From Xylogone sp. PMI_703 (lineage: Eukaryota; Ascomycota; Leotiomycetes), in contig JAJTUQ010000002.1 in the NCBI GenBank assembly GCA_021399445.1, positions 7,688,001-7,752,000 of the forward strand: a stretch of 64,000 bases of DNA, read 5' to 3'. Of this stretch, positions 23,215 through 49,743 are shown piece after piece. Under the pieces are notes generated by a model, which was given only the letters and a program-made list of their open reading frames with translations, had not been told where the DNA came from and did not search any database. Each line of letters opens with the position of its first letter. Position 1 is the stretch's first letter. The translations under genes and the position numbers were made by a program.

Positions 23215-23994
23215 CTAAAATGCAGCCTCTAGCTCTGTAAAATATTCTGCAAGGAGTCGTTTCATATATAGACTAAGATTCGAAATGCTACGAGCGACAT
23301 CAGTGATTTCTGGGTGTAAATCACGAGCTTGAAAAATGGCTGAAAGCATGCCAAAGACCACTGCATCAAAAGAAGTTGGCTTCTCTGTGCCTAATACAAA
23401 TTCACTGTCCCCTAGAATCTGGGACACGGCGAGCAGATCATTTTTGGCCTTTTCAATGATTTCTTGAGGTGTATAGCGGCCGGTTCCCTGGTTATATACC
23501 CGTGCAACGTAATCATCCCTGATGGCCTCTGTCACAGCGGACTGCCCGCCGCGGGTGGCTTTGAAAAAGAAGGTGGAGCCAGCATCATCAAAGAATTCAT
23601 AGTAGAGAATTATCCAATAAAAGTGATCTTCCAATGTCCTCTGCACTAAGTGGCCTACTGTAATCTGTTTGGGAGTGAGAATTGAATCAGGATTCGAAAA
23701 TTTGGTCTTTAGGAAGTTGATGATCAAGTCAGAGTCGCTGATCGTAACACCATCGACAGTGATAAAAGGAATTTTATGGCGTGGAGCGGCGTCCAAGTTT
23801 GGTTCCAAAATTGTGGTATAATTGATGCCAAAGAAGCGAAGGTAAGCCTCGAGCTTTAGAGGGAATGGAGAAAGGTTCGGTATGAATCGTTTTAATTCGG
23901 AATCAACAATATCAAAACGATGTAGTCCGATTACTGTGGAAGGAGTGACAGAACACTGGTCATAAGGGTTATCATAAACAGGATATTTTTCCAT
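23215..23994 (-). CDS. GST-like protein, metaxin/failed-axon-connections type
   Basis: This single-exon gene encodes 259 residues. An N-terminal thioredoxin-like domain (IGLHRFDI, SPFPLKLEAYLRFFGINY, HKIPFITVDGVTISDSDLIINFL) precedes a helical GST-C-like domain ending in LGTEKPTSFDAVVFGMLSAI. This order is that of the failed-axon-connections/metaxin-like GST group, common in fungi, some of them detoxification enzymes. The Pro before the helix is kept, but a clear catalytic Ser or Cys is not evident. The ATG at 23994 is used because the longer frame starts with TTG. A MITE lies 0.3 kb upstream. Confidence 0.8.
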   Translation of the reverse strand: MEKYPVYDNPYDQCSVTPSTVIGLHRFDIVDSELKRFIPNLSPFPLKLEAYLRFFGINYTTILEPNLDAAPRHKIPFITVDGVTISDSDLIINFLKTKFSNPDSILTPKQITVGHLVQRTLEDHFYWIILYYEFFDDAGSTFFFKATRGGQSAVTEAIRDDYVARVYNQGTGRYTPQEIIEKAKNDLLAVSQILGDSEFVLGTEKPTSFDAVVFGMLSAIFQARDLHPEITDVARSISNLSLYMKRLLAEYFTELEAAF

Positions 23995-24295
23995 TTTCAA
24001 CTCTGGAGTATATTGCGTGTTATTTAGAGCTGATAGTAGAGGAATCTATCTTCATTTTTATATCGAAAAGTTCGGGCTGTTTGCTCGTATAGGCTTACTA
24101 CAGGTGCCCACCATTTTGAAAAACGGCCACTGCCGCTTTCACGAGCCGAATCCTTCTAGCTTACAAATATACATATTGGTTTTGGGAGGCTGTCAAATTG
24201 CAAAGCGATATTTCGAGTTAGGAGACTGGGCAACTCTGTTGAATAAACTCCCGGTTGATAGGGACTGCTTAAATCCGCGGACAACGACAGAGATC

Positions 24296-24731: not shown

Positions 24732-25790
24732 TCAAGACTCAAACCTCAGAGCATCATTTTCTTTGGCCCATGAAGCGAACTTGTCGAAATTTCGGCACAT
24801 ATGTACCGCCCCCCAGCCGCTAGATCCCTCACTTTTAAGTGTCCTACCATCACTCTCTAAGAAAGGCTCTAATGTTGTATCGCTATAACACATGATAGTC
24901 TGTCGAAGGTAATCAAAGCAATGTTCCACATGTTCAGTCACTATATGACCTGGTGGATTGTTAGCAATATGAACGGGGTGATTGAGAGCTTCAGTTCCGC
25001 CATCTAACACGGTATGCCAAGCTGCACGCATTAGGGCACTATAGATCTAGTCAGCGTATTGGATGCGCATATAGTATGGGAAGTTAACTAGCTAACAGGC
25101 AGTGCAGTTGGTGAAAAGCAGCTAGGGCATATATCTGTTTGCCAGTCTCGGCTTGAATGTGAGACGCCGGCAGCCCAATCGTCTGCGGATTTTCAACTAG
25201 AAGATATCCTGAAAATTGTAAGAAAGTACTGCTCTGTGCATTGAAACAAATAAACTCAAGCAAGTCGCTTTCAAATAATAACGTACGCCCATGCTGAATA
25301 TTGGCCCATGCCAAGTCACTTTCGACAGTGCGATTTGTTGGATTAAAAAGATCGTCTGGCATGAAGAGTGTAGAGACTCGAGAGTCTACAATGGCTAGAG
25401 TAAAAGACGTAAATTAAGTCTACAGTTAGATTTGTTGATTTGTAGAGTGCGCTCGATCATTTACTGAGAATATAAATTCTGAAAAGGAGAGTACTCACCT
25501 GTAGGTATGACTGGATCCGGTATCGGTTGATTATTGAATTGCCAGATCATTAGTCCTACTGTGGCTATTGCAATCACAATGATTAGGAACCTGCACAAAA
25601 GGCTCCAGCGGGCCCGAGGCCTAGACTGTTGGCTGTGGGAGACATCGGGACCTTCTCTATATCGTGAACGCAGAAAAGGCGTTACAAGAAATTGACCATG
25701 TTCTAGAATGAGGCTACTGGCCGCAATATCCTCGTCTTCACAAATGAGCGGATTATTTAAGGCGTCTGGCACGGGCTTGTATTCATTCAT
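24732..25790 (-). CDS. UstYa-type (DUF3328) oxidase-like protein A
   Basis: This three-exon gene encodes a membrane-anchored UstYa-family protein. A cytosolic N-terminal part is followed by one membrane segment (LLCRFLIIVIAIATVGLMIW) and a lumenal domain with both family motifs, FHQLHCL and HVEHCFDYLRQ, then MCYSDTTLEP and MCRNFDKFASWA. UstYa homologues carry out oxidative tailoring, including macrocyclisation, of ribosomal peptides and some other metabolites; the paired HxxHC motifs are thought to bind metal. One intron splits HC from the next residues, as in the other UstYa genes here. It marks the left edge of the candidate RiPP cluster. Confidence 0.9.
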
Positions 25791-26850: not shown

Positions 26851-29023
26851 TTAAATTAAGGTTCTTTTACAATCCAGGCTCGCCATCGCATCAGTCCAAT
26901 CCACACACCCCCCTTCATCATCTCGCATTTGCCAGCATCGCTTCGCAATGCGCATTACTGTACTACACTTTTCTTTTGTTACCAGGTTATCTATTCCATC
27001 ATTCTCTAGTATTTTCTGAAACGCGAGCCTTTGATCAATAGTCTCGACCATGCAGCCGGTTACACATAGCGGCCAAACAACATGTTGGATTAAGTCTTCG
27101 TTGGCGACGGTCTCAAGAATTTTCATAGACTCGACGATATTGGTGCGAATCTCATCTAGGTGAGGATGTGGACCGGAGACAACAACATAAAGAAGCGTGA
27201 GAGCCGATCGAGCAAAGGTTTTGGTGACGAGCAATACTTCATCAGGAGATATGCTATCAACTAAATCGTTGCAATGATGATTTTCGTTCTCAGCTTGTTC
27301 AGCTGTCCCATCCAGCCATGCAATAATCATATCTTTAATTTTTGTCGCTTTTACCACCAGCTCGATGAAGCTCAGACTAGTACTCTTTTCCGCATCTATC
27401 TTCCAGCGATCAAGCTCGAGGATCTTGCTCAGTGCAATGATGACCCAGTTTTGGCAGCCGAAAAGGGCTTCGATATGTACGTTGTGTACTTCAAGGATGA
27501 GTTCTAGTGTAGAATGAAGAAGTGGTGCTGATCTTGTAGAAGCGCCCCAAATTATGTCGAAAAAGACAATGCCACTTGTGAAAAAGCTTAGGGCGTAGCT
27601 GCTTGAGTTCCTTGGTGCAGTGGGTGGTGGTGAAACGCTACTGGGACTCCTGGTAGACTCTTCGGAAATCTGGCTTGGTTCATCAATAGAGGGCCTGCTT
27701 TCCGATGTAGTCGCTATAGATTCTGACCTGTCTTGAGCCACAAAGGAATATAGCTCGAGTGATGGGTCAAATGTAACCTGGGAGAGAAGTTCGATACCTG
27801 CGGTCATATGCAAGAGCCAATTTTCCAGGCTGCCTTGGAGAATCTGAACAGCCTATCAGCAACAGTACACATGAGAGCACCGTCTGGTAGAGACAACGCA
27901 AGAATAAATCTAGGTGCTAAGAGATAAACCTTACCTGGAGCGAGATCAGGTGTACCACACAGCCGAGAGCTTCAAGATGTGCTTTGAATTTCTCGGTATG
28001 ACTAAGATTATCAAAGATCTGAATCCTCTCAATATGATTTCTGAACTCTTGCAGGGCTAACATATGGAAAGTCCACCATCGACTTTGATGGCTCACTTTC
28101 TTTGAATTTTTATTATTCTGATGTAGTGGCTGAACTAAGCTGTACGCTCCTAGACTCAGGACTGCGTAATGGAGAGCAACAGATCGAGAAATTAAGACTA
28201 AGAGCCAGCCTCTAGGACCACTATTATTGCTGTTGACTGAGTGCTGCGTATAGAATGGGAAAAGTAAGTGGAATACATGGTCAAAATAATACATTAGTGT
28301 AACAATCTGTTCATCGTCAACTATTAGTGGTGCTGACGGACCAAACAAACCCGGCCTGCTGATATCGGTAGGAATGAAGGCATCCTGTAGCACTCCAGTA
28401 GACCAAAGCGATGCAGTTTCTATAGCTGACTCGAAGACTATCGGCATCGAGATCTTGGTTGCATCCTGTTTTAAGGGGCTTTCCAAGACTGGAATATTCC
28501 AGGCAGTTTCCGGTGTTGTGTTTAGGGAATATTCATCCAGCTCCATCTCACCGGGGGTATCTCCAGCATGCTCGTCACCTCTGAGAAGTACGGAGTGTTG
28601 CGAGTATGAACTAATAACGGATGACTGCTTGGATATAGAGGGATTTTCTGGATCCGGAGTCAGACTTGAACTCCAGATTGAGGACAAAGAGGAGGAGGAT
28701 GAGGGAAGATCCTTTTCTGCGGATTCAGTTCGCCAATCCTTTGGAACGACGTCGGGCGTAGTGGTAGCCATCCACGTGATTGTCCCAATAGAATCTTGTC
28801 TCAAGCGGCTTCTCTGACCACGGGCACGCTTGATTGAACGCTTCAACTCCTCAAGATGGAGACGCTCCTTAGCACCACCATCCATCCAATCCGGCTTTGG
28901 TCCATAACCGTCACACTCGATTTCGAGATTTCGACAGGCTGAGCAACAAGGATGCACCTCGTCACACTTTTTTCGGCGTAGTCGACATGTCCAGCACCCA
29001 AGAGTGCTGCGATGATCAGGCAT
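26851..29023 (-). CDS. Zn(II)2Cys6 transcription factor
   Basis: Two exons (29023-27935 and 27852-26851) give about 696 residues. The N-terminal zinc cluster reads GCWTCRLRRKKCDEVHPCCSACRNLEIECDG, a complete six-Cys binuclear cluster of the class often found in fungal gene clusters. A low-complexity Ser-rich linker and a fungal-specific transcription factor domain follow (LMYYFDHVFHLLFPFY; C-terminal MRIAKRCWQMRD). It lies inside the UstYa-rich region, next to UstYa gene A. It is therefore the best candidate for the cluster regulator that would bind the CCGCGCGG sites, though this pairing is inferred. Confidence 0.9.
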
Positions 29024-29771
29024 GTTAGAGCAGGGAAAGTGGAAGGGAGCCGTGGAGAAAAAAGGAGGAGGGGGAAAGAGAAGAGACAGTGAGGATGCTG
29101 GCTACCACAAAGATCACGGTGAGTCGTAGTCCGACATGAGTAGAACAAGAAGTGATTGACTGGTAAATTGGTTATTGAAGGAAATGCTTTGTCATATTTA
29201 GATGCCACAGCTTGCTGACTACAGGATCAAGGCTGACTGCTTAGCTTACTCATGGAAAGAACGGGAGTGGACAACTGCGGGGTAAGGGCAGGAATACGAA
29301 TCTAGATCACAATCGGGATGAGAATTAGCATTGGAACCTGAATGGAAATCTTCCATTCCTTGGCATCTAGTGTGTTTCGGCCAATCCAACAGTGGCTGTA
29401 CGCCGTAAGATGTGCAAGTGGGGGGTGGAATCCCCAGAGGGATACAGGTCCGGTCCGACAGACCCCTAGTCAGCCCTGTTATCTTGATCATTTTGATGCT
29501 TGTCACATGGTGATTTCAGATATTTAGGATGGTGTTATTTATGGGCAAAATGCAACTGCAGCATGAGGTGAGCCGACATCCGTAAGACGGACCAGCATCG
29601 GGGAACCGCCGCTGTAGTTGTACGTATTATCCACGCTCCAGGTATTGCTGCTAGCTCCCGCAGCCACCCGTGAGCCGTTGGTATTGGCGGGAGATTTCAA
29701 TTATCGTATCCTATACGACGGAAGCATCTCCGGCGGCGCATAAGATGGGGTTATTATGGTATGTTTCCTCA

Positions 29772-29791
29772 TCCTCCTCCTCCTCCTCCTC
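29772..29791 (+). repeat. (TCC)n microsatellite
   Basis: About six and a half uninterrupted TCC triplets. It is a simple repeat with no evident function. Confidence 0.7.
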
Positions 29792-31347: not shown

Positions 31348-32601
31348 TCAAAAGCATACTTGTGTAAACCACTCAAGATCACCATGAGTCTCGTGACACC
31401 AAACATCATCCTTGTAAACAAAGTCTTCCAGCGACTTTAAACAATGATCAATATGTCCGATACTGAGATCACGAGGACACACATGCGTGTTGGAGCGTTT
31501 AGCCTCCAGGTACCGTCGTATTGCAGCTACACAATGCGCAATATGGAAGCGGCCATCAACATTAAGATAGCCTTCCGAAGTTGTAGCAAAACCAAGGAAG
31601 CCCGCATCCAGATAACGAGAGGATGTGTAGACCCGTTCCACATGTGGATACCGAGCCTTAAACCAGTCTTGTACACCAACTTCCTGACTTGTCAGCATCG
31701 CTGTGGGGATGAGAGTTTGATCATCCAGCCGCAAAGTATAGTTATCAGGGTTGTGATCGGCCCGCCAGTAGCTTACGTTGGAAGAAGTTAAAGTTAATTG
31801 ATACCGTAAGCCGGACGAAGAGGCGTCCGTTGGGAACTGCACCCACGGTTCTTGCTGCTTAGCAGATTGTGCCTGCGTATAGCCATGGATTGCTCGGAAG
31901 ATAAGTCCAAAAGAGAGCATGAGAGCGGCTACTATGGCGAGTAATGTAATCCAAACTAGCCTAGTCCCGCTTTTCAACGGCAGATAATCTGATCCCGAGA
32001 AAACCGCCCGCGAACCTGCTAGTTTTCGTGAGTTTAGACATGATTCAACTGCTGACCTCTCGGCGTATGACAACTCAAGCTTCTCCAAAATCGTCTGGTC
32101 GACAGCCTGGAGTGAGACTACGTAACTATGATGCGTCTCATCTGGCTTATCATCAGCTGGAGACAGATAAGGGTGAGGTTGTCCGTAGATCCTGGTTACT
32201 GACGAGGAGCCCTGGAATAATGCAGACTCCAAGTCATGTACTGTCTGGCGGAGTGCCCCGTCGGATCTTTGCGAGGTGCGAAGGACCCAGAGCGCGTAGA
32301 GGCTGAAGTTCTTAGGCTTGGGCCACACAACCCACTTGGAAATTCGTTTCGAAACGCAATGCTTGACGGATATGGGAAGTTCAAAAATCGTTACTCCGTC
32401 GTACTGTTGCTGAACTACATCGGAAATGAGGTCTGTAAGGCCAATTTCCCCCTTGCTGAGCTTTTTCAAGCGGGACACGCGAATGATGATTTGTAATGCG
32501 TTTGCTGCGTTTGTCAATAAAGGAGCTGATTCAGGCCCGTCCATTATGGTAGTTTTTGGGTCCAACTTGGAAATTCGTATTGAAGAGTTGGCTGGGTGCA
32601 T
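31348..32601 (-). CDS. UstYa-like HxxHC membrane protein B with long N-terminal part
   Basis: This single-exon gene encodes 417 residues. The first 210 or so are not recognisable. A membrane segment (LVWITLLAIVAALMLSFGLIF) follows, then a lumenal domain with two spaced motifs, FHIAHCVAAIRRYLEAK and HIDHCLKSLEDFVY. The pair of HxxHC motifs after one membrane helix is the UstYa plan, but the N-terminal part is far longer than the family's usual 30-60 residues. An alternative start at 32544 would shorten it slightly. Two CCGCGCGG palindromes lie 293-490 bp upstream. I infer an oxidative tailoring role in the RiPP pathway; a domain fusion or a separate subfamily are both possible. Confidence 0.75.
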   Translation of the reverse strand: MHPANSSIRISKLDPKTTIMDGPESAPLLTNAANALQIIIRVSRLKKLSKGEIGLTDLISDVVQQQYDGVTIFELPISVKHCVSKRISKWVVWPKPKNFSLYALWVLRTSQRSDGALRQTVHDLESALFQGSSSVTRIYGQPHPYLSPADDKPDETHHSYVVSLQAVDQTILEKLELSYAERSAVESCLNSRKLAGSRAVFSGSDYLPLKSGTRLVWITLLAIVAALMLSFGLIFRAIHGYTQAQSAKQQEPWVQFPTDASSSGLRYQLTLTSSNVSYWRADHNPDNYTLRLDDQTLIPTAMLTSQEVGVQDWFKARYPHVERVYTSSRYLDAGFLGFATTSEGYLNVDGRFHIAHCVAAIRRYLEAKRSNTHVCPRDLSIGHIDHCLKSLEDFVYKDDVWCHETHGDLEWFTQVCF

Positions 32602-32893
32602 GGAGGGTCAATTCCGACTTTTATACTGCAAATTCTGTTATTCATGGGCTGTAGTATTACGTTCCAACTAATAATCGCTTACTGCTTCCGTAAACAGGCG
32701 TTTTTACATCGAAACCCCGTCACTTTGCCCAGTTGCTCCCCATTATACAAGACGCCGCTCAGCCTTGTAATATAAAGAATAATTTGAATGGTATATCGAC
32801 ACTAGTTCTATACACGATAGGATTATCAAGCTTATCCTGGACTAATAATAATTGCTAATAACGTAAGTACTGCATGTTACTGCGTTTTGTCAT

Positions 32894-33090
32894 CCGCGCG
32901 GCATCTAAAAACACAATGGGAAAGAGCGGGAACTTTATCCATGATTTCGTGTTCGTTTAGAAGCTTGGATGTACTATGGCGGAACTATAATTTAATGATA
33001 TCGATGTAGTTTGCGCATCATACGTAAGCTTGGATAAGAAATCCCATCATTGTTGGATCTACATTTGCTTGATACATCCTAGCCGCGCGG
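32894..33090 (-). promoter_or_regulatory. Two CCGCGCGG palindromes upstream of gene B
   Basis: Perfect copies lie at 32894-32901 and 33083-33090. CCG-N2-CGG is an everted pair of CGG half-sites, the type bound by Zn2Cys6 dimers. The same octamer recurs before the precursor and between UstYa genes E and F. Confidence 0.55.
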
Positions 33091-33883
33091 TATACGCATC
33101 CGGAAGTTGGTGTACAACTTTGTACGCGTAGCATGTGTGTGGTACGTATGTAAGCTGCACAAACAAGGAACAGCGGCAGTTTATACACTTTCGGAAGGTG
33201 TCATTCTAAGATAGCAGATGCGTCTAACGAGTTTTAAGGGGTCACTTGAAAAAGCTTAGTCTTCAAGTAAGCTAGGCCAACAAGGTACTTGTATAGTTGC
33301 TGTACTAACAGATACCATAATTATTGATAAGGCCGAAACCCAGCTGGAGGAACTTCGATTACGGCAGAGTACATTGAGATTCCGAGCACATTGAAAGAAG
33401 ATCCGCGTCTTCCAGTGCCAGACACCAGATTTAATTCTTAAGTTTTCCATGGCGTTGTCTACACAGTATCTGCACAGGTGTTAAGGTTATTGTTGGTATT
33501 AGCAATATAGTCAATGGAAATTGATTCGCTAATTTCAATGCATTTAAATCTTTTGTACAACCAGTCTCCAGTCTAGGCAGATTTTCGTATCATATTCATA
33601 GATGTTAACGAGGTATAAATCTTGAAACATAACGTTAGTTCTGTGGTAAACTACATGTCCACTAGCTACATCATCTTCTCACGGTAACGGGTGACGGAAA
33701 ATCAAGTGGAGCATGACAGAACAAAGTAAGCAAGAAGATCAAATAAACAGTAATCTGGCGTTTCCCACATCCATACTCGTTATTCACAATCGGCACTGAT
33801 CAGATCCACTCTTATCTACTCTTATCCAATCCATAGGCATGAGCAAGATATTTGCCGAGAAGCAATTACTTAGCATGTGTCCC

Positions 33884-33974
33884 CTAGTTTAACGTTAGTA
33901 GACAATACCTACTATAATAAAAATAATTTCCACCAGTTTTATGGACGCAGTAAATTTGAAATTTTGATACTTAC
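33884..33974 (-). other. Probable 3' UTR intron of the precursor gene
   Basis: A strong donor (GTAAGT) lies 23 bases after the stop codon. A perfect TACTAAC branch site and an acceptor TAG follow 91 bases from the donor. The short stop-to-junction distance would not be expected to trigger nonsense-mediated decay. Confidence 0.5.
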
Positions 33975-33996
33975 CGACAGATACAAAAGTAGCCTC

Positions 33997-34518
33997 CTAT
34001 TCGTCGGCATCATATTTGACCATTACTTGGCGCTTTTCCAGAGCCTCTTCATCAGCGTCATATTTGACCATGACCTGACGCTTCTCTGCAGTGTCCTCAT
34101 CCGCATCGTACTTAACCATGACCTGACGCTTCTCAATGGCGTCTTCGTCTGCATCGTATTTAACCATAACTTGACGTTTCTCTGTAGTATCTTCGTCTGC
34201 GTCATATTTGACCATGACTTGTCGTTTCTCTGCAGCGTCCTCCTCCGCTTCATACTTCACCATGACCTGACGTTTCTCCTGAGCATCTTCATCAGCGTCG
34301 TACTTGACCATGACCTGACGTTTTGCAACGGTGTCCTCGTCAGCATCATATTTAACCATGACTTGGCGTTTCTCTGGAACATCCTCGGCATCATATTTCA
34401 CCATCACCTGCCGTTTGATGTAAGCTGGGGCAGCGGAGATGCCAGATATTGGCACGGCGACGGCATTTTGCATCAAAACTGCAAGGCTGAAAAAAGTAAA
34501 AGTGCTGGCTCCCTTCAT
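33997..34518 (-). CDS. Repeat-containing secreted RiPP precursor (dikaritin type)
   Basis: This intronless gene encodes 173 residues. A signal peptide (MKGASTFTFFSLAVLMQNAVA) is followed by nine repeats starting at residues 35, 50, 66, 82, 98, 114, 130, 146 and 162. Each begins with the dibasic Kex2 site KR and the invariant hexapeptide QVMVKY. An acidic stretch (DADED or close) and two variable residues follow, usually then Glu before the next KR. The last copy ends at the stop. This plan (signal peptide, KR-separated near-identical cores each with one Tyr) is that of dikaritin precursors such as those of ustiloxin and phomopsin, and six UstYa-like genes surround it. Only the linkers vary, so selection appears to hold QVMVKYD. 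Which residues form the final product is unknown. A general Kex2-processed repeat protein is the alternative. Confidence 0.9.
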   Translation of the reverse strand: MKGASTFTFFSLAVLMQNAVAVPISGISAAPAYIKRQVMVKYDAEDVPEKRQVMVKYDADEDTVAKRQVMVKYDADEDAQEKRQVMVKYEAEEDAAEKRQVMVKYDADEDTTEKRQVMVKYDADEDAIEKRQVMVKYDADEDTAEKRQVMVKYDADEEALEKRQVMVKYDADE

Positions 34519-35744
34519 TTTGTCAAGTTGTGGTGTAAAATGGGCTATACTTTGGTGTATCGGAGATGTTAAGAATTAAATAGATGGATCGGAGATGTGT
34601 CTTGAAATGATGAAGAGAAAGGAGATGGAAATGCTGGACAGGATATATAGAGGTGCTCTAGAACGCTTACGCGTGGTATCTTGGTAGAAATTTGTGTAGA
34701 CGTTAGGATTGAATTACAGGTTAATACTTCTCTTGATGCTTTCAGTTTAGTTTGGATATGTCTATGGCTGAAATCAGTCGCTGACCGCGCGCGTAACGTT
34801 TCTCACTATTGCCGTATGGAAAGTTTGTACCACGATTAAGAGTTGAAGCGATCATTACCTCAAGGGGCTGTTACTTCAAAAAAAACTTGCGTGCTTACGA
34901 AACACGGAATCTCCAGTTTACTCAGGCCTATTACAGAGAGGTGAAAATGTCACGAATGCGTTAACCGCGCGGAATGTATGTACAAATGTTTGAAGAAATT
35001 ATTCCTTAGCTTAGTGCTGCTCAGACTGTAGATGTAATGATTAGTTTGTGCTCTGGGCCGCGCGAAACAATTTTCGGAACTAAGTGCCAGTTAACTTCCT
35101 CAATGTAGTCGAGGGTGTACTCAAACCAAGCTCTGCAGTTATGTGATTTATCCTCCCCGTGTAGCCAATGGAAACCAAGGCTGCCGCAGATGAACTGAAG
35201 TGTGAAGATGCATTATGGACAAAATTTTTGTCTATTCATGTATAATTAAATTACCGTGCTAGTTTGCATGTTAGTCTCAAGAGACCACCTGTGAATAGAG
35301 GGTGTTGAATGTCAATTTTATGATTTTAACAATAACACGATTAATGTTTTCATAAATTACTCGTTTCATAAGAGCTGAGAGAAAAGTCCAAAAACTCGGG
35401 GGTTCACAAAACAAGACCCTCTTCAGTAGTATGTAACAATCTCAGAAGCTTTTTATGGCCTTATTGGTCGAGCTTCACCCTGTTCAAGAGCTTGTCCGAC
35501 GTAATACAAATCGAGCTCATTTCATTTAATAGAGTATTTAGATATTGAAATTTAATATATACAATCTCCGGCACACCCATAAGCTCGCGAGTAAATGAGT
35601 CTTCGGGAGAGACGGTAAAACGATTCAACAAACAAAGCATATATTTGATAAGGATGCGATATCGTGCAAGTAAAAGTCATATCTCAATGATTTAAAATAG
35701 AAAAACTTCTGACCAGATATGAGCAAAGTATCGGCAAAATCATA
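34519..35744. other. Intergenic, promoter of the precursor
   Basis: No gene is seen in this 1.2-kb region. Besides the CCGCGCGG-type sites it has a direct repeat CGGAGATGT at 34561-34569 and 34590-34598, close to the precursor start. Confidence 0.55.
34795..35065 (-). promoter_or_regulatory. CCGCGCGG-type sites upstream of the precursor
   Basis: A perfect CCGCGCGG is at 34965-34972. One-mismatch copies are at 34795-34802 (CCGCGCGC) and 35058-35065 (CCGCGCGA). They lie 277-550 bp upstream of the precursor start and probably mark the binding region of the cluster regulator. Confidence 0.55.
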
Positions 35745-36461
35745 TCATTCGCTCCCATTATCTACACGACAACTAGAAAACCAGGGGTAGTTCTTCGTGA
35801 AATATCGGTTTAGTACTTCCTCGCTTGCACCGACATACTTCAAGAGAAAAGCAGTACAATGCTTCGTATGCCCATAGCTTCTTGTGACATCATCTGTTAT
35901 TCTCCAACCATTGTCCAAACCCCAATGTAACCTACGCCAAATGAGTGCACAATGCACCACGTGTTCCCTTATTGTAGTCCAGTATGGCTCCTCTGACATC
36001 TCATCTAGACTTAGTATCTGCGTACCCTGACGGTCTCTGGATCCCATCCAAGGGGTCAGAGACATATATTCCTGGATTTCTGCGTCATTGAAGCATGGTG
36101 CCGGTACCCAGCCAACTGTTAGAGGGTCATATTTGCATCCTAGTATTCGTGCTTCAGCAGTGGAGTTACCGCAGTGAAGGATGGAGGTTGCGGAGGAGTA
36201 ATTGTCAATCTGATCAAGACAGATGGTAGATTTGTAGTGCTGGAAAAGGTACAATCCAAACGTCCATACGATGGAGGTAATGACGGTTGTTGCTATGATA
36301 AGAACAGCTTTGCGGTATAAGGATAATCTCGCGTCGCCACGGCTATCAGTCTCTGTATTATCGGGCTTCTCGCCGATTAAGCTATAAGTTGGATTCGCAT
36401 CGTCTCTGGAAGTGTTAATTGGAAAAATGAATTTAAACATTCTGTGATGAAATCGAGCCAT
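35745..36461 (-). CDS. UstYa-like HxxHC/HxxHC membrane protein C
   Basis: This single-exon gene encodes 238 residues from the ATG at 36461; the longer frame would need GTG. One membrane segment (VLIIATTVITSIVWTFGLYLF) leads to a lumenal domain with EHVVHCALIWRRLHWG and, about 40 residues later, GHTKHC. The spacing and the WRR context differ from classic UstYa, but proteins of this plan (HVxHC..MWRR..HTxHC) recur in fungal secondary-metabolite regions. The role as tailoring enzyme is inferred from the motifs and from its position between the precursor and UstYa gene D. Confidence 0.75.
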   Translation of the reverse strand: MARFHHRMFKFIFPINTSRDDANPTYSLIGEKPDNTETDSRGDARLSLYRKAVLIIATTVITSIVWTFGLYLFQHYKSTICLDQIDNYSSATSILHCGNSTAEARILGCKYDPLTVGWVPAPCFNDAEIQEYMSLTPWMGSRDRQGTQILSLDEMSEEPYWTTIREHVVHCALIWRRLHWGLDNGWRITDDVTRSYGHTKHCTAFLLKYVGASEEVLNRYFTKNYPWFSSCRVDNGSE

Positions 36462-37090
36462 GTGTATTTCACATATCACCCTAGAATATCTTTCAAGTGG
36501 TGATAAAGCTATCTGGCAGAAATTACGGAGAGATTGGGACGCTACTTAGGCCAGCTATTGATATTGCAAGGTGATGGCAGAAAACAAGGACTTCTAAGTG
36601 TCTTAATGCCTCATCCTACTTGACTGGACTACACTGCAAGCAACGCTTTACCCATGTCATATCACTGAATATGGCAATGGTGTGAGAGCCAGAGCTCAGC
36701 GATCCGCCTTGAGGCCTTATCGGGAATGGATCTCCGAATATTTGATTGGGTGATACTATACTCAGAGCCTGTTGAGCTTATGAGATTCTGGGAATGACAG
36801 AGTAGATGATTGTAAGATTAGGGTATTACGAGGTTCTTCTCAACGTGGTCGCTGTAAGTCTATTTTGGAATTTAAGCATTTTCTATTCCTCTACATTTGC
36901 TACCCATTTGTATCCAAGGGAACAATGTTTGAGGAGCTGATTATATTGACTGTACTCCGTAGGCTTCAGTGACAGATAAACAACTTCTCACTCAAACGTG
37001 GTGCTTATTACAATATCAACAGGAAGTATTCGATTAATGTTTTCCGTATTGGATATAACCCCATCTCATATTGCCCTATATTCTAGCTTC
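36462..37090. other. Intergenic, no gene seen
   Basis: Promoter region of gene C and 3' flank of gene D. No cluster octamer was found here. Confidence 0.5.
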
Positions 37091-37910
37091 CTACCTAGAA
37101 TGGTGATCATGAGCAGAAGTATGTACCATGGTAGCTGCCAGTGACTTCTCATATAGTTTGTTAGGATCTCGGCATTGATGCTGTACCATTCCATCGATAA
37201 GTAGGTCACCATTACTACCGACATGGACAGTCTCTAGAGTATCATCGGCGAGACAAAGAATGCTCTGTTCAATTTTAGTATTAGATACCAAATATCTCAA
37301 CTTCAGCAAACATCATTCATACCTGTCGTAGATAATCAAAGCAGTGCAGCCAATGTGCGGGACGCAAACTCCCAGCCTCTGAGTGACCTTGATGTTTTCC
37401 GCCGCTGGACTCTTGTAAGGCACTGCGAATCATCTGAAGGCAGTGAAGCTGGTGAAACATTGAAATTCCCCGAACGCGAGATGCAAATGCAATGTCATCA
37501 GTTGTACCATGATGAGACTCAATGATATGTGGCTCTTCAACTATCACAAATCCTCCGTTTGGAGTTAACAAATCTTCCCAGTATTTATCATCGGCTGGAT
37601 CTAAACTTTGATAATTGTTGTACTTTTGGAATGTAACTGATGTATCGTATATTTGAGGGCAAGTATGCTGGTGACCTCCAAGTGGTCCTGTAGCACCCCA
37701 AGAGCGCACATGGGAAGTAATAGGCTGACGGTTGAAGACTAGAGCTGAGAATAGAACGATGCTTACAATAACTGCAGCGATTGTGCGACCACGGAAAGCT
37801 GAATGAAAAGATGAACCCATGATGTCGATTCGAAATTCTTCAACATTTGAGCTTCGAAATTTAGTATAATTTTCAATTGATATGCTTTCGCGGTCAGTTG
37901 AAGCTAGCAT
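37091..37910 (-). CDS. UstYa-type (DUF3328) oxidase-like protein D
   Basis: Two exons (37910-37323 and 37264-37091) give about 253 residues. The order is cytosolic tail, membrane segment (TIAAVIVSIVLFSALVF), then a lumenal domain with FHQLHCLQMIRSAL and HWLHCFDYLRQ, the two family motifs. The usual C-terminal HTCRNW block is altered to VQHQCRDPNKLYE. The intron follows DYLRQ. A second in-frame ATG at 37820 would leave a short tail before the membrane segment. It probably takes part in oxidative modification of the precursor-derived peptide. Confidence 0.9.
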
Positions 37911-38544
37911 TATGTCTCTTCAAAGGAGTTACGAGCTTAAGGTGCAGCCGGGGTACCTGGATCACTTGTCGGGAAAGCATCGTCAGTAAAAGCTGCAGTA
38001 ACCCAAAGTAAATCCTGGTGGCGGCTCGCCATCCTCGGACAAAGTGCAGCCAATTACAAGCTGATCGAATTAGTATTAATCGTATCGCTAGAATCTGATC
38101 AATCACTTGGAATACACAAGTCCCTTCATACTGTAGCACGGTTATGGCCGTGATTATTGGAATGTATTCTGTTTTCAATGCAAGACAGGTGGTCGTCGTA
38201 CGCGTAATTCTCTATTGTTACAGGATTTTCACTTCAAAAGCACAACCCCGATTGGCTACTTTTTTTAATTGTTATAAGTTAGTATGTATGAATAGACATT
38301 CTTTGATAATGTGCTTTCTGTTGAATTATACCATGTTTATGTTGTAGATGTTCGTTTTATCGTTAAATCTCAAGATTACCAGGCTTATAGTAGTCCCGAG
38401 TCTCTGTACTTCGAGACACCTCGGCTAAGAAACCATACGAGCACAGCTACCCTGAACAAACACTGTCACTCGCAAAAACCTAAGAAGTCGGACAAACTTT
38501 TGTTGTAGCATCTGATTTGTGTATTTGACATCGTGGGTTTGCTC
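37911..38544. other. Divergent promoter of gene D and the peptidase
   Basis: No gene is seen. UstYa gene D and the S33 peptidase diverge from this AT-rich spacer. No CCGCGCGG was found in it. Confidence 0.5.
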
Positions 38545-40419
38545 ATGCAGACCATTGCAGTTCTTATCGCGCCCTTTCTCGCGCACATCGGCCTTTCGAG
38601 AGCAAACACGGGAGCTGATGACATCGCAGACCAATGGTCGCTCTGGGATCAGATATCACCGTCTACGGATCTGAATTTCTCCTCCTGCTACGATGGATTC
38701 GAGTGCGCGCGTCTGATACTACCACTTGATTGGGATGCTCCAGATGACCTATCTACTATCTCGATCGCTATTATCAAGCTTGCAGCTTCAGTGCCACCGT
38801 CACACCCAAGTTACGGTGACGCTATAATCACTAATCCTGGAGGACCGGGTGGCTCAGGAGTTCAATTTCTGCTCCAATTCGGGAGGCAAGTGCAGAGTAT
38901 CATCGAAACGGGTAGTCTGGCCACGCCAGATGCGGAAAGAGAAGCACCTAATACGGATCCTCGCCGGTACTTTGATATCATTTCCTTTGATCCACGGGGT
39001 GTATTATTCTCGTCCCCAAGTGCACTTTGCTTCACTGATCCTATAGTCAGAAGGATATGGGAGACCCAGAAGCATGCCCAGGGCAATCTCGATGACAATC
39101 CTGCCACTCAGCGGTCGATGTGGGCTAGGGCACGGGCCATGGGGAAGTTCTGCAATGCGAGCGGAAGAGAAGGAGAAGGACAAGCAGCCGAAACGGATAT
39201 CCGAAGGTTCATGAGCACAGAGCTAGTTGCTCGCGATATGCTGGCGATTACTGAAAGATTGGAGAAGTTATCTCACAGTTGCTGTGCTCTTTCAGATGGC
39301 GCCCAGTTTCCAGTAAAGCAAAAAGGAGATTCGCAGGTGGAAGCCAAAGGACCTATGCTCAATTACTGGGGAGTTTCATATGGCACGATTTTGGGCATGA
39401 CATTTGCTAGCATGTTCCCTCATAAAGTTGGTCGGATGGTGCTTGATGGTGTTATGGATCCTTATGACTACGTACGACAAGAGTGGAAACAAAACTTAAA
39501 TGATGCGGAAACAGTGATGAAGGCATTCTATCAACAATGTTTCAATGCCGGAGAGACTTGTGATTTATTTAATCCGCTTGGGCCACATGCTATCGAAGAC
39601 AACCTACTGGAAATACTGAAGAAATTGAAGGACCAGCCTTTGCCAGTATTAGGATCTTCGGATGCAATGGTGCCCGAAATTATCACCTATAGTGATGTTA
39701 AATGGCTGATATTTTTCAGCATATATGATCCAGTCGACAAGTGGCCACTCATGGCTAGGGCCCTATCACAACTACGTGAAGGAAATGCCACAGATTTAAT
39801 CAACCTCCTTGGATTTAAACGTCCTCTGCAACTGTCAACGTACTGTGGGCAAAATAATAAGACCAAAATCTCATATGAAGGATCCTTTGACGAGGTTGGC
39901 ATGGCCATCCTCTGCAGTGACGGCGATGATATGTCAAAGCAAACATTCGAAGATTTTCAGCTCTATCAGCAGCAACTGGAGCACCAGAGCCCTTCAATTG
40001 GAGCGATCTGGGCACGTATTAGGCTAGCTTGTACAGGATGGAAGATCAGATCTAAGAGTCGATTCACAGGACCATTTGAAGGAAATACATACTGGCCAAT
40101 ACTTTGGTTGGGTAACAGAGCTGATCCAGTGACACCAATCTCAAACGCGAAGCGTATGGCAAAATCTTTCCCGGGATCTGTGGTCTTACAACAGGAATGT
40201 GAAGGACATAACTCGTTTGCCGCACCATCAAAGTGTGTAAGAAGATATGTTAGTCAATATTTTAGCAGCGGCCGGCTCCCTCCAGCGAATACTGTGTGTG
40301 ATGTAGAAGCTAGGCCATTTCATAAGTCGGATGCAGTAAATCGTATGATGCATCCTATGCAATGTGATGGATCTTGCTCAAATATCTTAGTTATTGAAAA
40401 ACCCAGATTAGGCTGGTAA
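38545..40419 (+). CDS. Secreted S33 tripeptidyl-aminopeptidase-like hydrolase
   Basis: This single-exon gene encodes 624 residues starting with a signal peptide (MQTIAVLIAPFLAHIGLS). An alpha/beta-hydrolase domain shows the oxyanion segment NPGGPGGSG and the nucleophile elbow GVSYGT. The C-terminal TAP-like domain supplies the acid in GNRADPVTP and the His in CEGHNSF. This is the layout of tripeptidyl aminopeptidases of family S33. The gene lies among the UstYa genes, so it may trim peptides after Kex2 cleavage; that role is inferred. The ATG at 38545 is used since the frame upstream begins with GTG. Confidence 0.88.
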   Translation: MQTIAVLIAPFLAHIGLSRANTGADDIADQWSLWDQISPSTDLNFSSCYDGFECARLILPLDWDAPDDLSTISIAIIKLAASVPPSHPSYGDAIITNPGGPGGSGVQFLLQFGRQVQSIIETGSLATPDAEREAPNTDPRRYFDIISFDPRGVLFSSPSALCFTDPIVRRIWETQKHAQGNLDDNPATQRSMWARARAMGKFCNASGREGEGQAAETDIRRFMSTELVARDMLAITERLEKLSHSCCALSDGAQFPVKQKGDSQVEAKGPMLNYWGVSYGTILGMTFASMFPHKVGRMVLDGVMDPYDYVRQEWKQNLNDAETVMKAFYQQCFNAGETCDLFNPLGPHAIEDNLLEILKKLKDQPLPVLGSSDAMVPEIITYSDVKWLIFFSIYDPVDKWPLMARALSQLREGNATDLINLLGFKRPLQLSTYCGQNNKTKISYEGSFDEVGMAILCSDGDDMSKQTFEDFQLYQQQLEHQSPSIGAIWARIRLACTGWKIRSKSRFTGPFEGNTYWPILWLGNRADPVTPISNAKRMAKSFPGSVVLQQECEGHNSFAAPSKCVRRYVSQYFSSGRLPPANTVCDVEARPFHKSDAVNRMMHPMQCDGSCSNILVIEKPRLGW

Positions 40420-40548: not shown

Positions 40549-41740
40549 TTATATACCGTATCCCGTATCGTTCCTCTGCAATGCCCATTCATGTAGCTTG
40601 TCGTAGTTGCGACATGTATGGTGAATTTCCCAATTTGTCCTCCACTTTGGTGGATCATGTGTATAGTCGTGATAGACAGTTATGGGGGTCGTGTCTCCGT
40701 GGCACATTAGCACCTGGCGGAGATAATCGACGCAGTGGTCTATGGAGAAAAGTGGATTAGAATGTATTACATGACTAAAATGACACGAGTGGATGAGGCT
40801 TGAGGCTATTTCATTACCGAGGTGCATCTTTACTACGCTCTCCGGTTCATTGTATGGATTGACGTCACCATAGGCGACGTGACGAATTTGATCCTGCAAA
40901 CCCGGTTACAATGTAAGCAGATTAATTCAGACTGTAGTAAAAGGCGTGATAGTATTATCCAAAGCTATAACATACCAGACACTGATTGAAAGGTTAAGAT
41001 CATGTTAGCGGGAGTATAGCTAGAAGCTTATATACCCAGGACGATTTACGGAAGGAGGACTCACATGGATTTGATGGAACATGGCAATGACTACAATGTA
41101 ATTATCAGGATGTTCTAGGTCAAATGCTGTACTTGTCGGCAGTTGGGCATTCTCTGCTGCCGTCAATCGATAGATACCAACTATAGGCCACAGTTAGACG
41201 AGAGAGCAATTAATATGCCGAGTCGCTGATAACAGTAACCGACCATCTTGGAGCTGAAGCCATTTGCTGTTCGTTTCTGGAGATAGAGGGCCTTCGTAGG
41301 GATCAACGCTTATGTTTTGGTCATGAAAACCGCTACTTTTGAAGACAATATCCTCATACTCAATCCAACCTTCCACGGATTCTAAGGCTTTGTTAGCTAT
41401 CAAAAATCACTATGACTAATGCAGCATCCTCACTGTATAAGCGACAGTTTATCAGTTATACGTGCTGAAAGAAATGGCGAAACTCACCAAGCTCAGTGGG
41501 AAAGGCTTTGGGACACTTCGGACTCTCCTTGCTGAATAACAATGTGGTGTACATGGCGAGAACCACAAGATGAAGAAACCAGGGCAGATATGAACCCATA
41601 GTGCCACGCCGCGGTTTATTAGGGAATAAACGAGTCTGGTCAATCTCTTCGTCACGGTCGAGCCCGTGAATGTCCTTCAACAAACCAATCTCAGCAGATG
41701 ATCCAGACTCAGAAGACGTTCTATCGTTGAAAGCACCCAT
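40549..41740 (-). CDS. UstYa-type (DUF3328) oxidase-like protein E
   Basis: The gene is split into six exons. The product has a cytosolic tail, a membrane segment (LPWFLHLVVLAMYTTLLF) and a lumenal domain with both motifs, FHQIHC and HLDHCVDYLRQ. MCHGDTTPITVY and HHTCRNYDKLHEWA follow. The Cys-Leu of the first motif lies on a 6-base micro-exon bounded by good splice sites, and the second motif is restored only by removing an intron starting GTAATG. The C-terminus (RNDTGYGI) resembles that of gene F (RNTTGLLI), and the two genes diverge, so they are probably a duplicated pair under shared control. Confidence 0.88.
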
Positions 41741-42247: not shown

Positions 42248-43256
42248 ATGGACTCCGCTGCCACTGGACTTCTAGCGGATGAGGACCAGAAAACTAAAGA
42301 AGAAGCCTGGATCTACGATTTTGAGCAGAGGTTACTACGGCAAGAAGATATCCCTCTTTGGGGACGGATCGCAAATAATATATTCGCTTGGAAATGGCTG
42401 ATTCTAAACATGACTATTCTCATAGTCAACATCACACTCGTTGTGATACTTGTGCTAAACCAAACCATTCGATATCAACGTCTTGGACATGTCTCAGTGA
42501 GCAACTTCGGAGAAGATGAAATAATCTACGAAACTAGGAGGATGCATGCAAGTGGCTTTGAATTTCACTGGGCTGTCGAAGATAAGTCATACAACCTGTA
42601 TGAGGGACCTCCAACCCCTGAAAAAGACAAAGCATGGGACGACTTGATTCAAGGTTCGTCTTTCGATTCGTCCTCATCATTCTTACTCTATAATCATTTC
42701 GTCGATAAACGCAAACAAATATAATTCAGTACTAACAAGTGATTTTGCAGTTGGTATTGTGTCCCTCACCAGCGACGAGGCCGGACAGCTTGCCAATAAG
42801 ACGCTAGAAAATCCATTAGTCGAAGGAGAATATATGGTTGGCGTTGAGGTATTCCATCAGATACACTGTGTCGTAAGTCTACTTGCATGCGAAATGAAAA
42901 ACTTGATGTGCTGTGTCAGTACTAAACCACCTTGAACAGAATATTCTGCGCCACCAGGTCTATGAGCAGGCAACACCCTATAGCCAGAGGCCACGGAATG
43001 AGCGCGCACATATTGGTTGGTATTCTCTCGTCACTATTCTGAGACATAATCTAACGTTATAAATAAAGATCACTGCGTTGACAGTTTACGCCAGGTGATT
43101 ATGTGCCACGGCGACACAACACCGATGTCCCTAGTGAGAGATGAACGTGAGTCGCCACCATACTTTGTAATTTTTGAGACAGTTCACACTTGTCGAAATT
43201 GGGACTCAATATGGAACTGGGCAGTGAAGAGGAACACAACAGGTCTACTTATTTAG
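42248..43256 (+). CDS. UstYa-type (DUF3328) oxidase-like protein F
   Basis: Four exons (42248-42653, 42751-42872, 42940-43015, 43069-43256) give 263 residues. The order is cytosolic tail, membrane segment (LILNMTILIVNITLVVILVL), then a lumenal domain with YEGPPTPEKDKAWDDL, FHQIHCVNILR and HIDHCVDSLRQ. MCHGDTTPMSLV and HTCRNWDSIWNWA follow, the full UstYa pattern. The ATG at 42248 is preferred over in-frame upstream ATGs in the promoter. It forms the right edge of the UstYa block. Confidence 0.92.
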
Positions 43257-43464: not shown

Positions 43465-44271
43465 CTATTTTGATAACCATTCATCCACAGTCAAGACCTC
43501 TTCCACAATAATTGGCCAGATGAGATCCGTTGCCGCGTCCTTGAGAGCGTTACTAAAACCGGCAGTTGCATCCTTACTTCACCAAAGTTAGAATCTCAAA
43601 TTGTCATTATCGGAACGTGCAACTTACATCAACGTGACAGTGTAGCCCCTAGAATTTGATCATGATTAAGTGAGCTCCTATGCAATAAATTTAAGAGCAC
43701 AGAGTAAAGAAACTCACAGTTCACCAGCATGACGTGCTGTGCTTTCTATGCAAGTATTCGCTACCATACCGGCGCATACAACGTGGGTAATATCGTGTTG
43801 GCGTAGCTCATATTCAAGGTCCGTATTTGCGAAAGAACTGAGATTGGTGCATCGAGGCATTAGCCAACACACTGATCAGAATAGTATATAATAGTGCACA
43901 ATGCTCCATGATTTGACTTACTTGCTGTTCCAGTGGCGAGCGACGACAGTGTCTCCATTTTTTAGGTCCGGCTTCAGCTCCTCAAGCACATCACCGCCCC
44001 AGGCGCCCACTTCGAACACATGGTCTCGCTGAATCATAACATGATTCTTCTTCATGTGCTTCCAGCCGGAAAACTTTCCCTCTTGGTAACCTTGATGGAG
44101 GCAATAGAAAATTGGGATATGTGCTTGACGCGCCTTTTTGATAAGCCTGAGCAGATTGGGCACGGCGTTTGAGGTCTCAATACTCTCCTTTAGCAAACCG
44201 TAGAGCTTCCCCTCGGGATGGACGAAGTCGTTAAGGGGATCAATAAGGATAAGAGCGGTATTCTGAGCCAT
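43465..44271 (-). CDS. Isochorismatase-like cysteine hydrolase
   Basis: This four- or five-exon gene encodes roughly 190 residues. The N-terminus (TALILIDPLNDFVHPEGK) holds the catalytic Asp, and CAGMVANTCIESTARHAGEL holds the nucleophilic Cys; the Lys of the triad is probably in the DHVFEVG to NSK segment. The C-terminal part includes DATAGFSNALKDAA. The family hydrolyses amide or vinyl-ether bonds in small molecules. It borders UstYa gene F, but no cluster motif was found upstream, so membership of the cluster is uncertain. Confidence 0.85.
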
Positions 44272-45108
44272 GATAACTGAGTAAGGTACAGTATAATATT
44301 TGTCACAAGAAATGCTTATAGTTGCAGGATTCTTTTTTATTGCATCTCTTTCGAGGGTAGATTGCCGTACTTATATTGATGATAGCAGTACAGAATGAGC
44401 CAGCTAAAAGCTGAGTAACTAATTACTATTTAGTTTAATACGTTCTAGTATCATAATCATGAACCATTTCTTCCCATGTGTCTGAAGCCATCAGCTTTAA
44501 TTGGGAGTGAGCCCACAACTACGCAAGGGGCCTACTGCCCTGAAAAGGAAACGGCTGCTTACTAACTGAAAGTGCGTCGGAGAAAAACATGGGCTGGCCT
44601 GTTAGCGCCCGCGAAACTTTAGTTAGGTATGATCCCACAGGGGTCCTACTACCCAAAAAAGGCTAGGGCTCTTAACGGATCGATTTTGAGCTTCATCTGC
44701 TTATATAATAAATCTGGTTTAAATCTCTAGATTTTGAATTAATCAGATCCATGGAAACAGATCGAATTCAGATTTACCCTAAATCTGATTCGACCCGGTT
44801 CGTTAGGAGCCTTAAAAACGGCGTCAAGATTTGCTATACGTCATTATATGCCTCTGAGACCATCTCCATTGATAGGATAACTCCTCACATCTGTAATATG
44901 CTGATTATCATGTGCATCATACGTACGTGGCGGTTTCTTCATTGCCACATCTAATGAATCACGTAAGCCTTCATACAGGTGGGCTGGCTTAGGATCTCTT
45001 TATAGTGATTTCTCAAGATGGCCACGGCAATTGAGATACAGTATTCTTATGACTTATCCTGCTTCCTGTTGACACTGAAGGCTGCCTCTGTAGATGTGTA
45101 TCTGAATG
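44272..45108. other. Intergenic with a degenerate inverted-repeat element
   Basis: No gene is seen. Two diverged 35-bp direct repeats (near 44526 and 44639, sharing GGGG-CCTACT-CCC) and an imperfect inverted repeat lie here. Confidence 0.45.
44666..44812. mobile_element. Degenerate MITE-like inverted repeat
   Basis: GGGCTCTTAACGGATCG at the left and the inverted counterpart of CGGTTCGTTAGGAGCC at the right are flanked by TA. The match is only partial, so this may be an old element or chance. Confidence 0.3.
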
Positions 45109-47477: not shown

Positions 47478-49743
47478 TCACAACTTTCCTTTCTGCACGA
47501 CCACGGTACTACTCTTCTTATCCAAGACTGCCGGCTTCGAGGTACAATCGACGTCCACATTCGTAGGTGGAACCCACAAACAAGGATTCTGCTTGAAGAA
47601 ATTGCTCGCGCGTATCATGATTCCCACTGGCTCAGCAGGCATGATAGGGAAGTCCTCAGTACGAGGGAAGTGCGTGATACCAAACTGCAGATAAGCCACA
47701 ATATCAGTATTCTCGATGTTTTCGCCTCGTGCAACCCAGTCAGCGACGCTGGTATTGTCGACATAACCTGGTGCACCAGTGGATTGTGGGACGTAGTTTC
47801 CTGCGGGGAAGAGCTCATAGTCACGATGAGGCGTGACCCATAGAGTATGTCTGGCGAAAGCGGCGCGGTTGTGGACGATTGAGCCAGGCTTTGCGAGAAG
47901 TGGCGTCGATTCACGGGTTACAATCTTGTATCCGATCGGCTTCTTTGCAACTGGATGCAAGATGTTGGGGTTGATGATGTCCCAGGTACGTCCGGTTTCA
48001 TGGCAGTAATCGACGCCTTGGCTCGTAGTTAATGGAGTCTTCTGGCAGTAGAAACCGTTGCCATAAAAGTTAGCTTTTGAGCCAACGGGTTCTGGAGAGG
48101 CAACGGCATCATTCTGGACAACTGTGTTGTTGGACCCATCGATAGCTGGGTCAATGCGAAGCGAGAAAATGTGTTGATGGTTGTGAGCATTGATGCGCTC
48201 TCCGACTTCAGTGCCATATTTTCCGGCTTCCTCTGATGCGTGGAGAGGATAGGTGTTTAACATTCCAGTCAACTTCACTTCCAACTTGTATGTGCCGTCA
48301 AGGGTGAAAGTGTGGTAGAAACCATATTCGTAATTAGCCGCTGTAATTATTTGGGAAATGATGAGTTTGCGATCTCGTGCTGATATAACCTTGCCGTCGC
48401 GGAAATCGGTGTGTTTATAAAGAAGACCGTTGTCCTCTTCATGAATGCATACTGCGTTGGGAATGACAGCAGCATCGCCATTACCCATACCGACAACAGC
48501 GTCGAGGTAGTGGATGGCACCCTTGCAATCACATCCCAACTTGAGAGAATTGGTCATGAATCCAGTACCATACTCACCGACGTCAAAGGCATGTTTCTTG
48601 TGATGAGGGGGTTCCGGTTCTCCATAGGGAACCACCATCTCGACAATGGAGATGCGGTCGAAAATTTGGCGCTCCCGGCCCTCATACGGATCATCAACAC
48701 GAACATCAGAAAGCACAATTCCCTCACGATAGTTGAATCCGATATGCATCTTATATCCTGCCCAAGAAATCTCGTTTCCGTTCATAGTGAAGCTCACGCC
48801 CTCAGGCTGGGTAATCGAGATAGGCTTCAGCCGATCATGTTTGTACTCGCTCGCCACGAATTCAGGCAAAAAGTTGTGTTCGGCGAGGTTGACTGGTGTT
48901 CGCTGGCCATTTACACGGCGGATATCGACGGACAAGACCTTCTCGCGCTCGGTATCGACGACGACGCTGAAGTCCAAGGGGTGTGCATACTGGTTGTCGT
49001 ATGGCGAGTTTCGATAGTAGGCCAAAGCTTGCTGCAGACGGGTCTCAAAGCCCCAGCGATCATCGTGGCCGATAGCCCAGCCATCAAAGAACACCTTGCG
49101 CATGTCATAGATGCCAATCTCGCGACATGCTTCGATGACTTGAGGATCAGCTCGAGCAACTCGTTCCGAGATGTCAAGGTCCTCGAGCGTTAGAGTCGGG
49201 AAGACGTCTTTCAATTCCTTCCATGATTCCACAGACTTGGTGGTCAAGTTCACGATCGATTCGGCAACTTGAGAGGAACCCAGCTCGAGGGTGATGACGA
49301 AGGCCTTTCGGTCGGGACGAGGACCTGATCCATTTCGGAAGGCGGTGTAGACGGCTTTCGGCGGCTCGTGCAAGGTGATAGAGTTGAATTTGAAAGACGT
49401 CTTAGGTTTGTAGCTGCGTACCAGAGAGGCAGCGAGGGGAATTTCGGCGATGGACAACTGATCTGAGAGCATGCAGTGGTCAGCGTGACTTGCTTCGCTG
49501 CAGATGCAGCACGGAGGTAGCTACCTCCGTACTGATAGGGAGACAGTAATGCGGGGCTCCTGCACTGGCGATGGACCCCAAGGATCACACGCGGGCGGGC
49601 AGCTCCTGCGCTGTGCACTTACCTAAGGGATGTGGGATGGAGCTGGCGGATTTGGAGCAGCCACAAGATGACTTCGCTGGCTCGGGGACGTAGCCATCGC
49701 GATATATCTCGTAGCCAGCAATTGACGTGGTGTCTATCGACAT
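47478..49743 (-). CDS. Copper amine oxidase
   Basis: Two exons (49743-49623 and 49462-47478) give 701 residues. The enzyme oxidatively deaminates primary amines to aldehydes, with release of ammonia and hydrogen peroxide. The tyrosine that becomes the topaquinone cofactor lies in AANYEYGFY. The copper ligands are the HNHQH pair and the distant His in GITHFPRTEDFPIMP, and the catalytic-base region is YLDAVVGMGNGD. Length and domain order are normal for the family. The C-terminal GKL is not a standard PTS1. It lies 4 kb beyond the UstYa block, so a link to the peptide pathway (a Lys is present in each core) is only a thought. Confidence 0.95.

Follow-up and report, generated by a model that had tools for sequence, protein, structure and literature searches.

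A gene in a 64,000-base stretch of the Xylogone sp. PMI_703 genome (hereafter the window) encodes a Kex2-processed repeat protein that, with a probability of about 0.84, serves as the precursor of a fungal RiPP modified by UstYa enzymes, much as ustiloxin and asperipin are. The predicted protein consists of a signal-like start and nine units built on the hexapeptide QVMVKY, and its gene lies among six UstYa-like genes (Table 1). The product would most likely be a cyclic peptide that is itself undescribed but whose general type is known; the core is new, and we infer both the product and its cross-link.

Table 1. Features of the window, numbered from its first base, with the precursors found at other loci of the same genome in the last row
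Feature	Position	Strand	Basis or remark
Precursor gene, Kex2-processed repeat protein, 173 aa	33997..34518	minus	uninterrupted single-exon ORF, ATG to stop
Predicted signal peptide, residues 1-21, MKGASTFTFFSLAVLMQNAVA	34456..34518	minus	cut between A-V-A and V, placed by eye
Nine units KR-QVMVKY-[DE]A[DE][DE]-linker	34000..34416	minus	KRQVMVKY invariant, 9/9
UstYa-family gene a, 272 aa, HQLHC + HVEHC	24732..25790 (exons 25499-25790, 25287-25394, 25097-25208, 24732-25038)	minus	PF11807 E 9e-19 on last exon; spliced model
Divergent UstYa-like ORF b, 419 aa stop-to-stop, HIAHC + HIDHC	31351..32607	minus	PF11807 16.5 bits (cut-off 25); motifs
Divergent UstYa-like gene c, single exon, 238 aa, HVVHC + HTKHC	35748..36461	minus	no Pfam match; likeness to L005
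UstYa-family gene d, 253 aa, HQLHC + HWLHC	37091..37910 (exons 37323-37910, 37091-37264)	minus	PF11807 E 1.4e-14 on first exon; model
UstYa-family gene e, six exons, 264 aa in model, HQIHC + HLDHC	40549..41740	minus	PF11807 above cut-off; exons set by hand
UstYa-family gene f, 263 aa, HQIHC + HIDHC	42248..43256 (exons 42248-42653, 42751-42872, 42940-43015, 43069-43256)	plus	PF11807 above cut-off; spliced model
Zn2Cys6 transcription factor, Zn_clus + Fungal_trans_2, two ORF pieces	26854..29101	minus	Pfam
TAP-like alpha/beta hydrolase, hydrophobic N-terminus	38509..40416 (stop-to-stop frame)	plus	PF08386 E 2.4e-20, PF00561
GST-like gene, GST_N_4/GST_C_6	23218..24045	minus	Pfam
Isochorismatase-family ORF, cluster membership uncertain	43921..44370	minus	Pfam
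Copper amine oxidase ORF, 680 aa, cluster membership uncertain	47481..49520	minus	PF01179 E 3.1e-157
Seven further Kex2-repeat precursors, other loci	L019:8175-8786, L021:2844-3098, L025:3499-4104, L027:1045-1323, L030:2012-2287, L031:1862-2455, L034:1-324		KEP scan

The architecture of the gene agrees with the original prediction, which had described an ORF with a signal peptide and nine Kex2-site units but had given no strand. MKGASTFTFFSLAVLMQNAVA is followed, after the predicted cleavage, by VPISGISAAPAYI and then by the units, each of 12-16 aa including the KR that precedes all nine of them. QVMVKY had been called invariant, and together with its KR it is indeed identical throughout; the acidic stretch D/E-A-D/E-D/E varies slightly and the linker drifts. 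Tandem Repeats Finder recovers the same array with a period of 48 and a score of 330, and finds a DNA identity of about 74% between units, so that the description of the units as near-identical stands for the protein but not for the DNA. The precursor is a KEP by Umemura's criteria, its signal peptide being judged by eye only: the start looks typical, and the units exceed the required three or more tandem repeats of at least 8 aa between Kex2 sites. Such an ORF is not a matter of chance. Eight KEP-type ORFs were found in 26 fetched loci (seven distinct, one being a second frame of L031) and one in the window, and ten dinucleotide shuffles of all 27 sequences yielded none.

Searches with the precursor returned no relative. 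At E <= 1 its own locus was the sole match in the genome, and among 7091 word-sharing candidates of the protein database none reached E <= 0.01; it was also not found among the annotated Xylogone sp. PMI_703 proteins of the size range searched, though the protein of gene e is present there. Gene c as a query gave one match among 112 candidates, the window itself, and all six UstYa-like proteins gave 11 protein matches, including P0002 (window) and P0003 of the same genome and others named from Phlyctema, Colletotrichum (two), Penicillium, Xylaria, Astrocystis and Beauveria. The Phlyctema vagabunda protein, P0004, shares 44% identity with gene e. Since fungal proteins turn up with these queries, the null search with the precursor is not powerless and fungi are covered at least partly. 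VMVKY, MVKYD and QVMVKY occur in no main text of the literature searched, and among the matches listed none links Xylogone with RiPPs. Five Pfam matches to the precursor, fvmX3-analog among them, were put down to its repeats and set aside; for four of them the threshold was not reached by any single stretch.

The core KRQVMVKY is under strong selection. Across the 36 pairs of units there are 146 synonymous differences at 158.7 sites (pS 0.92, saturated) and no difference at 705 non-synonymous sites. For the DADE codons pS is 1.00 and pN 0.083, and for four linker codons of units 2-8 the values are 0.75 and 0.29; this looser constraint beyond the core gives the best indication of the make-up of the mature peptide. 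Sorted by codon position of the minus frame, the variable columns of KRQVMVKY number 0/8, 0/8 and 7/8 at positions 1, 2 and 3. Because synonymous sites are saturated, variation is confined to third positions and no amino acid changes, the array is not a recent expansion and the minus frame is coding.

The six UstYa-like genes span 24732-43256, that is 18,525 b, and the earlier count of six within 18 kb was right: a, d, e and f pass the PF11807 cut-off, and b, which scores under it, and c, which has no Pfam match, are recognised by their two HxxHC motifs. The precursor is flanked by such genes on both sides at 1.2-2.6 kb, with b and c, at 1.4 and 1.2 kb, being the nearest of 12 genes measured. 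By hydropathy and motif, all six combine a strongly hydrophobic helix with a pair of HxxHC motifs, a count that is partly by construction in the spliced genes: models a, d and f come from a splice search requiring motif-bearing pieces, the exons of e were set by hand, and b and c are single ORFs. For a and f, motif-bearing models were picked from several candidates; in f, one without motif 2 scored slightly higher on splice signals. Columns W130, H171, H174, C175, R180, H200, H203, C204, L208 and C244 are invariant in alignment A1. ORF b has its membrane helix near residue 218 and is given as a stop-to-stop frame. Genes e and f share 43% identity over 176 aa, and gene c shares 37% over 124 aa with L005, which itself scores 110 bits to PF11807. 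A search of the PDB for UstYa relatives gave none at E <= 1, and an AlphaFold model of c alone (pLDDT 42.6, pTM 0.24) was too low for use.

Two further observations concern individual UstYa-like genes. In gene e, a microexon of 6 b (40976-40981) codes for the Cys of the first HxxHC and the next Leu. Over its length of 259 aa, the deposited protein P0003 (F5884DRAFT_779139) matches gene e at 98% identity, but five residues of our model are missing from it where exons 1 and 2 join; the microexon is supported because P0003 has the same junction there. Relatives of c, which are invisible to PF11807, are picked up by tblastn in L022, L024, L025, L026, L028, L033, L034 and L035, eight of the 26 pieces taken from the surroundings of UstYa loci, and a profile for this subgroup could help mining.

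Around these genes, the Zn2Cys6 factor is likely the cluster regulator, the TAP-like hydrolase may be a trimming peptidase, and the GST-like gene possibly marks the cluster edge. The copper amine oxidase ORF lies 13 kb from the precursor, and the genome carries about 8 genes of this kind (15 matches). Two ORFs at 45112-46975 have no Pfam match. Elsewhere in the window, ORFs for AMP-binding, MaoC, Fungal_trans regulator, metallo-beta-lactamase and thiolase proteins adjoin at 3603-14283, perhaps as a separate metabolic cluster, and a perfect 32-base tandem repeat of 2.3 copies stands at 57709-57781.

How far the locus may be called a dikaritin locus depends on the definition. The strict set of five genes comprises a repeat precursor with leader, multiple DUF3328 proteins, a tyrosinase, a methyltransferase, and a peptidase or transporter (Ding et al., via PMC12048977), of which the first two are both present. 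None of the 13 tyrosinase (PF00264) matches in the genome lies in the window, which places the locus outside the strict set; nor do any of 5 S41 peptidase matches or any of 50 Methyltransf_25 (PF13649) matches (50 of 121 genome candidates scored, this family only). For the peptidase or transporter, the window holds the TAP-like hydrolase and, some 25 kb off, MFS ORFs (59120-60531), besides lacking S41. In the looser sense a dikaritin is made from a KEP precursor cyclised by UstYa homologues (PMC10512285), and the locus fits this sense in having a Kex2-repeat precursor beside UstYa genes, with cyclisation of the core a prediction. The label "dikaritin-type" of the original prediction is therefore kept for a Kex2-repeat precursor with a new core among UstYa genes, and dropped in the five-gene sense. 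Failure on the strict list is no argument against the mechanism, since functional clusters without one or more of the five genes were reported later (PMC12048977, a 2025 lichen study). It does mean, in view of the tyrosinase, S41 and Methyltransf_25 results, that ustiloxin or phomopsin chemistry is not simply transferable.

Several known systems come close to this locus. Asperipin-2a of Aspergillus flavus (AprA/AprY) also has a ustiloxin-type repeat precursor, a Tyr-bearing hexapeptide core and a UstYa enzyme, and no tyrosinase appears among the four genes named (PMC6514808). Its core FYYTGY contains three Tyr and it has one UstYa protein, whereas QVMVKY contains one Tyr and is accompanied by six UstYa-like genes. 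Phomopsins and ustiloxins share the signal peptide, the KR-separated repeated cores and several UstYa proteins (five and two), the phomopsin type also has a zinc-finger regulator, and the ustiloxin core is flanked by ED motifs (PMC7329392, PMC6514808). They differ in that a tyrosinase is needed and that Tyr is N-terminal in the core and bonded to Ile (PMC9233826, PMC6514808). In epichloecyclins (GigA), KR sites likewise flank the repeats, an internal Tyr follows an aliphatic residue, and there is a Lys, which is methylated (PMC9233826, PMC6514808). Their sequence is another one, and four imperfect repeats give rise to several cyclic peptides. Victorin reportedly has a Lys-containing hexapeptide core, and its cluster is said to include a copper amine oxidase. 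This peptide of Cochliobolus victoriae comes from a multi-core Kex2 precursor and is classed with the dikaritins (PMC10512285, PMC9233826), but it is cyclised via Phe and Leu and chlorinated, and the amine oxidase here may not belong to the cluster. We rejected that oxidase as proof of kinship with victorin, given its distance from the precursor and the number of such genes in the genome. The UstYa-linked KEPs surveyed by Umemura in 2020 resemble our precursor in that at least one of the 15 nearest genes encodes a DUF3328 protein, with an average of 1.7 such genes against six by motif, or four by Pfam, at this locus (PMC7329392).

On these grounds a pathway can be proposed. The signal peptide would take the precursor into the ER, and Kex2 in the Golgi would cut after each KR, to judge from the sites, to release as many as nine peptides of the form QVMVKY-[DE]A[DE][DE]-linker. 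The acidic tail may serve in recognition and as a removable spacer, later trimmed, with the TAP-like hydrolase as a possible agent. In these compartments, membrane-bound UstYa enzymes with a binuclear copper centre would oxidise the core, most likely, by analogy, by joining Tyr6, its only Tyr, through an ether to the beta-carbon of either Val4 or Val2. In the rings of ustiloxin and phomopsin the bonded residues are two apart, and a Val4-Tyr6 bond would have the same spacing but with the aliphatic residue first. The remaining UstYa-like enzymes could desaturate, hydroxylate or cyclise further; as a guess, the N-terminal Gln left by Kex2 may become pyroGlu, and the copper amine oxidase could conceivably act on Lys5. 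Such steps have precedents: the DUF3328 protein CctR is described as a membrane-associated binuclear copper enzyme whose HxxHC(x)nHxxHC binds two coppers and which uses O2 and electrons (PMC12435403), Tyr cyclisation with UstYa proteins is reported for ustiloxin, asperipin-2a and phomopsin cores (PMC7329392, PMC6514808), and phomopsin UstYa proteins also desaturate residues (PMC10512285). Tyr occurs in 65.6% of the repeats of KEPs beside DUF3328 genes, compared with 38.2% elsewhere (PMC7329392). A bolder version, in which the six enzymes act in sequence on a six-residue core with one Tyr and the amine oxidase oxidises the Lys before it to give a multiply cross-linked, tyrosinase-free Val/Lys/Tyr scaffold, is unlikely in our view; if true, such a scaffold would be one not described for fungal RiPPs, and six UstYa-family enzymes would exceed the numbers seen for characterised cases (five in phomopsin).

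Other readings of the ORF were weighed against that of a UstYa-modified precursor. Kex2-cut peptides might be secreted unmodified, for signalling or as wall or surface components like Ustilago Rep1, with the UstYa genes serving another product. Most KEPs (6120 of 7878, or 78%) are reported to have no DUF3328 companion (PMC7329392), structural roles have been speculated for some (PMC6339444), and UstYa proteins are also reported to serve non-ribosomal peptides and polyketides (PMC12048977). This is nevertheless distinctly unlikely with UstYa-like genes close by on both sides and a core that offers one Tyr and two Val; moreover, no synthase-type Pfam match was found in the 19 larger ORFs of the 23-50 kb stretch, and the KEP scan gave no second precursor in the window.

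Signal peptide, KR sites and repeats are equally the architecture of alpha-type mating pheromone precursors, an identity that is very improbable here: the core has no Cys, where pheromones of the Leotiomycetes/Sordariomycetes-like kind are described as keeping two (PMC6339444), and pheromone KEPs, three exceptions aside, are without DUF3328 neighbours as far as that survey reports (PMC7329392). A pattern search for the genome's own mating pheromone gave one match, a 35-aa frame without repeats, and two in a reversed control, and was dismissed as chance. That the array is a low-complexity or mis-read repeat, with the real frame being the antisense ORF at 33877..34572 (+), has next to no probability. 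Starting at a GTG, the opposite strand does hold an open frame of 231 codons, and the Pfam matches on the repeat look spurious, but an in-register plus-strand ORF would place the variation of KRQVMVKY at its first positions, and no ORF of this kind arises in the shuffles.

The UstYa-modified precursor has company in the same genome. A PF11807 search gave 108 exon-level matches, which fall into 52 loci (gene a of the window counted apart from d, e and f), and 17 of the 50 others were sampled in whole or part as 26 pieces of 221,580 bases in total. Seven of the 17 have a KEP precursor of their own with a different core, a share that may be biased upward, as 11 of the 17 had at least three PF11807 matches, and that misses intron-split precursors. 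The cores are QSPDLGYYVYF, NPLIASGAYGTY, QTTGDKSPKYEDYEVS, PQYRNADW, DEDGIRAGDF, PHHTEAQIAAKEAA and PQFRNTDF; between their units pS is 0.40-0.92 and pN 0-0.067, the latter lowered by the picking of units by motif. As weak controls for the genome background, KEP scans found nothing in the window outside 23-50 kb or in L010-L013 and L040 (19.4 kb; L011 lies inside the window; UstYa content unchecked). In three of the eight precursors, namely that of QVMVKY and those of L019 and L025, most units have Gln immediately following the dibasic site. The L025 precursor (QTTGDKSPKYEDYEVS; L024-L026, G000 C1:8093598-8114283) is near several UstYa-like genes and near tyrosinase matches at C1:8096533 and C1:8102267, and its locus resembles the classical dikaritin gene set more than the QVMVKY locus does.

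With KEPs at these seven loci, and with 1758 of 7878 KEPs (22%) counted as UstYa-linked in 2020 (PMC7329392), the QVMVKY locus is less exceptional than the original prediction held. Only five dikaritins had been reported by late 2022, according to a review (PMC10512285), few when set against the 22% of KEPs beside UstYa genes. The QVMVKY locus is a clean case for finding further chemistry, its core limits being well marked by an unvarying core with saturated synonymous sites. With at least seven further UstYa-linked precursors of different cores in one genome, the fungus itself would be a useful test bed.
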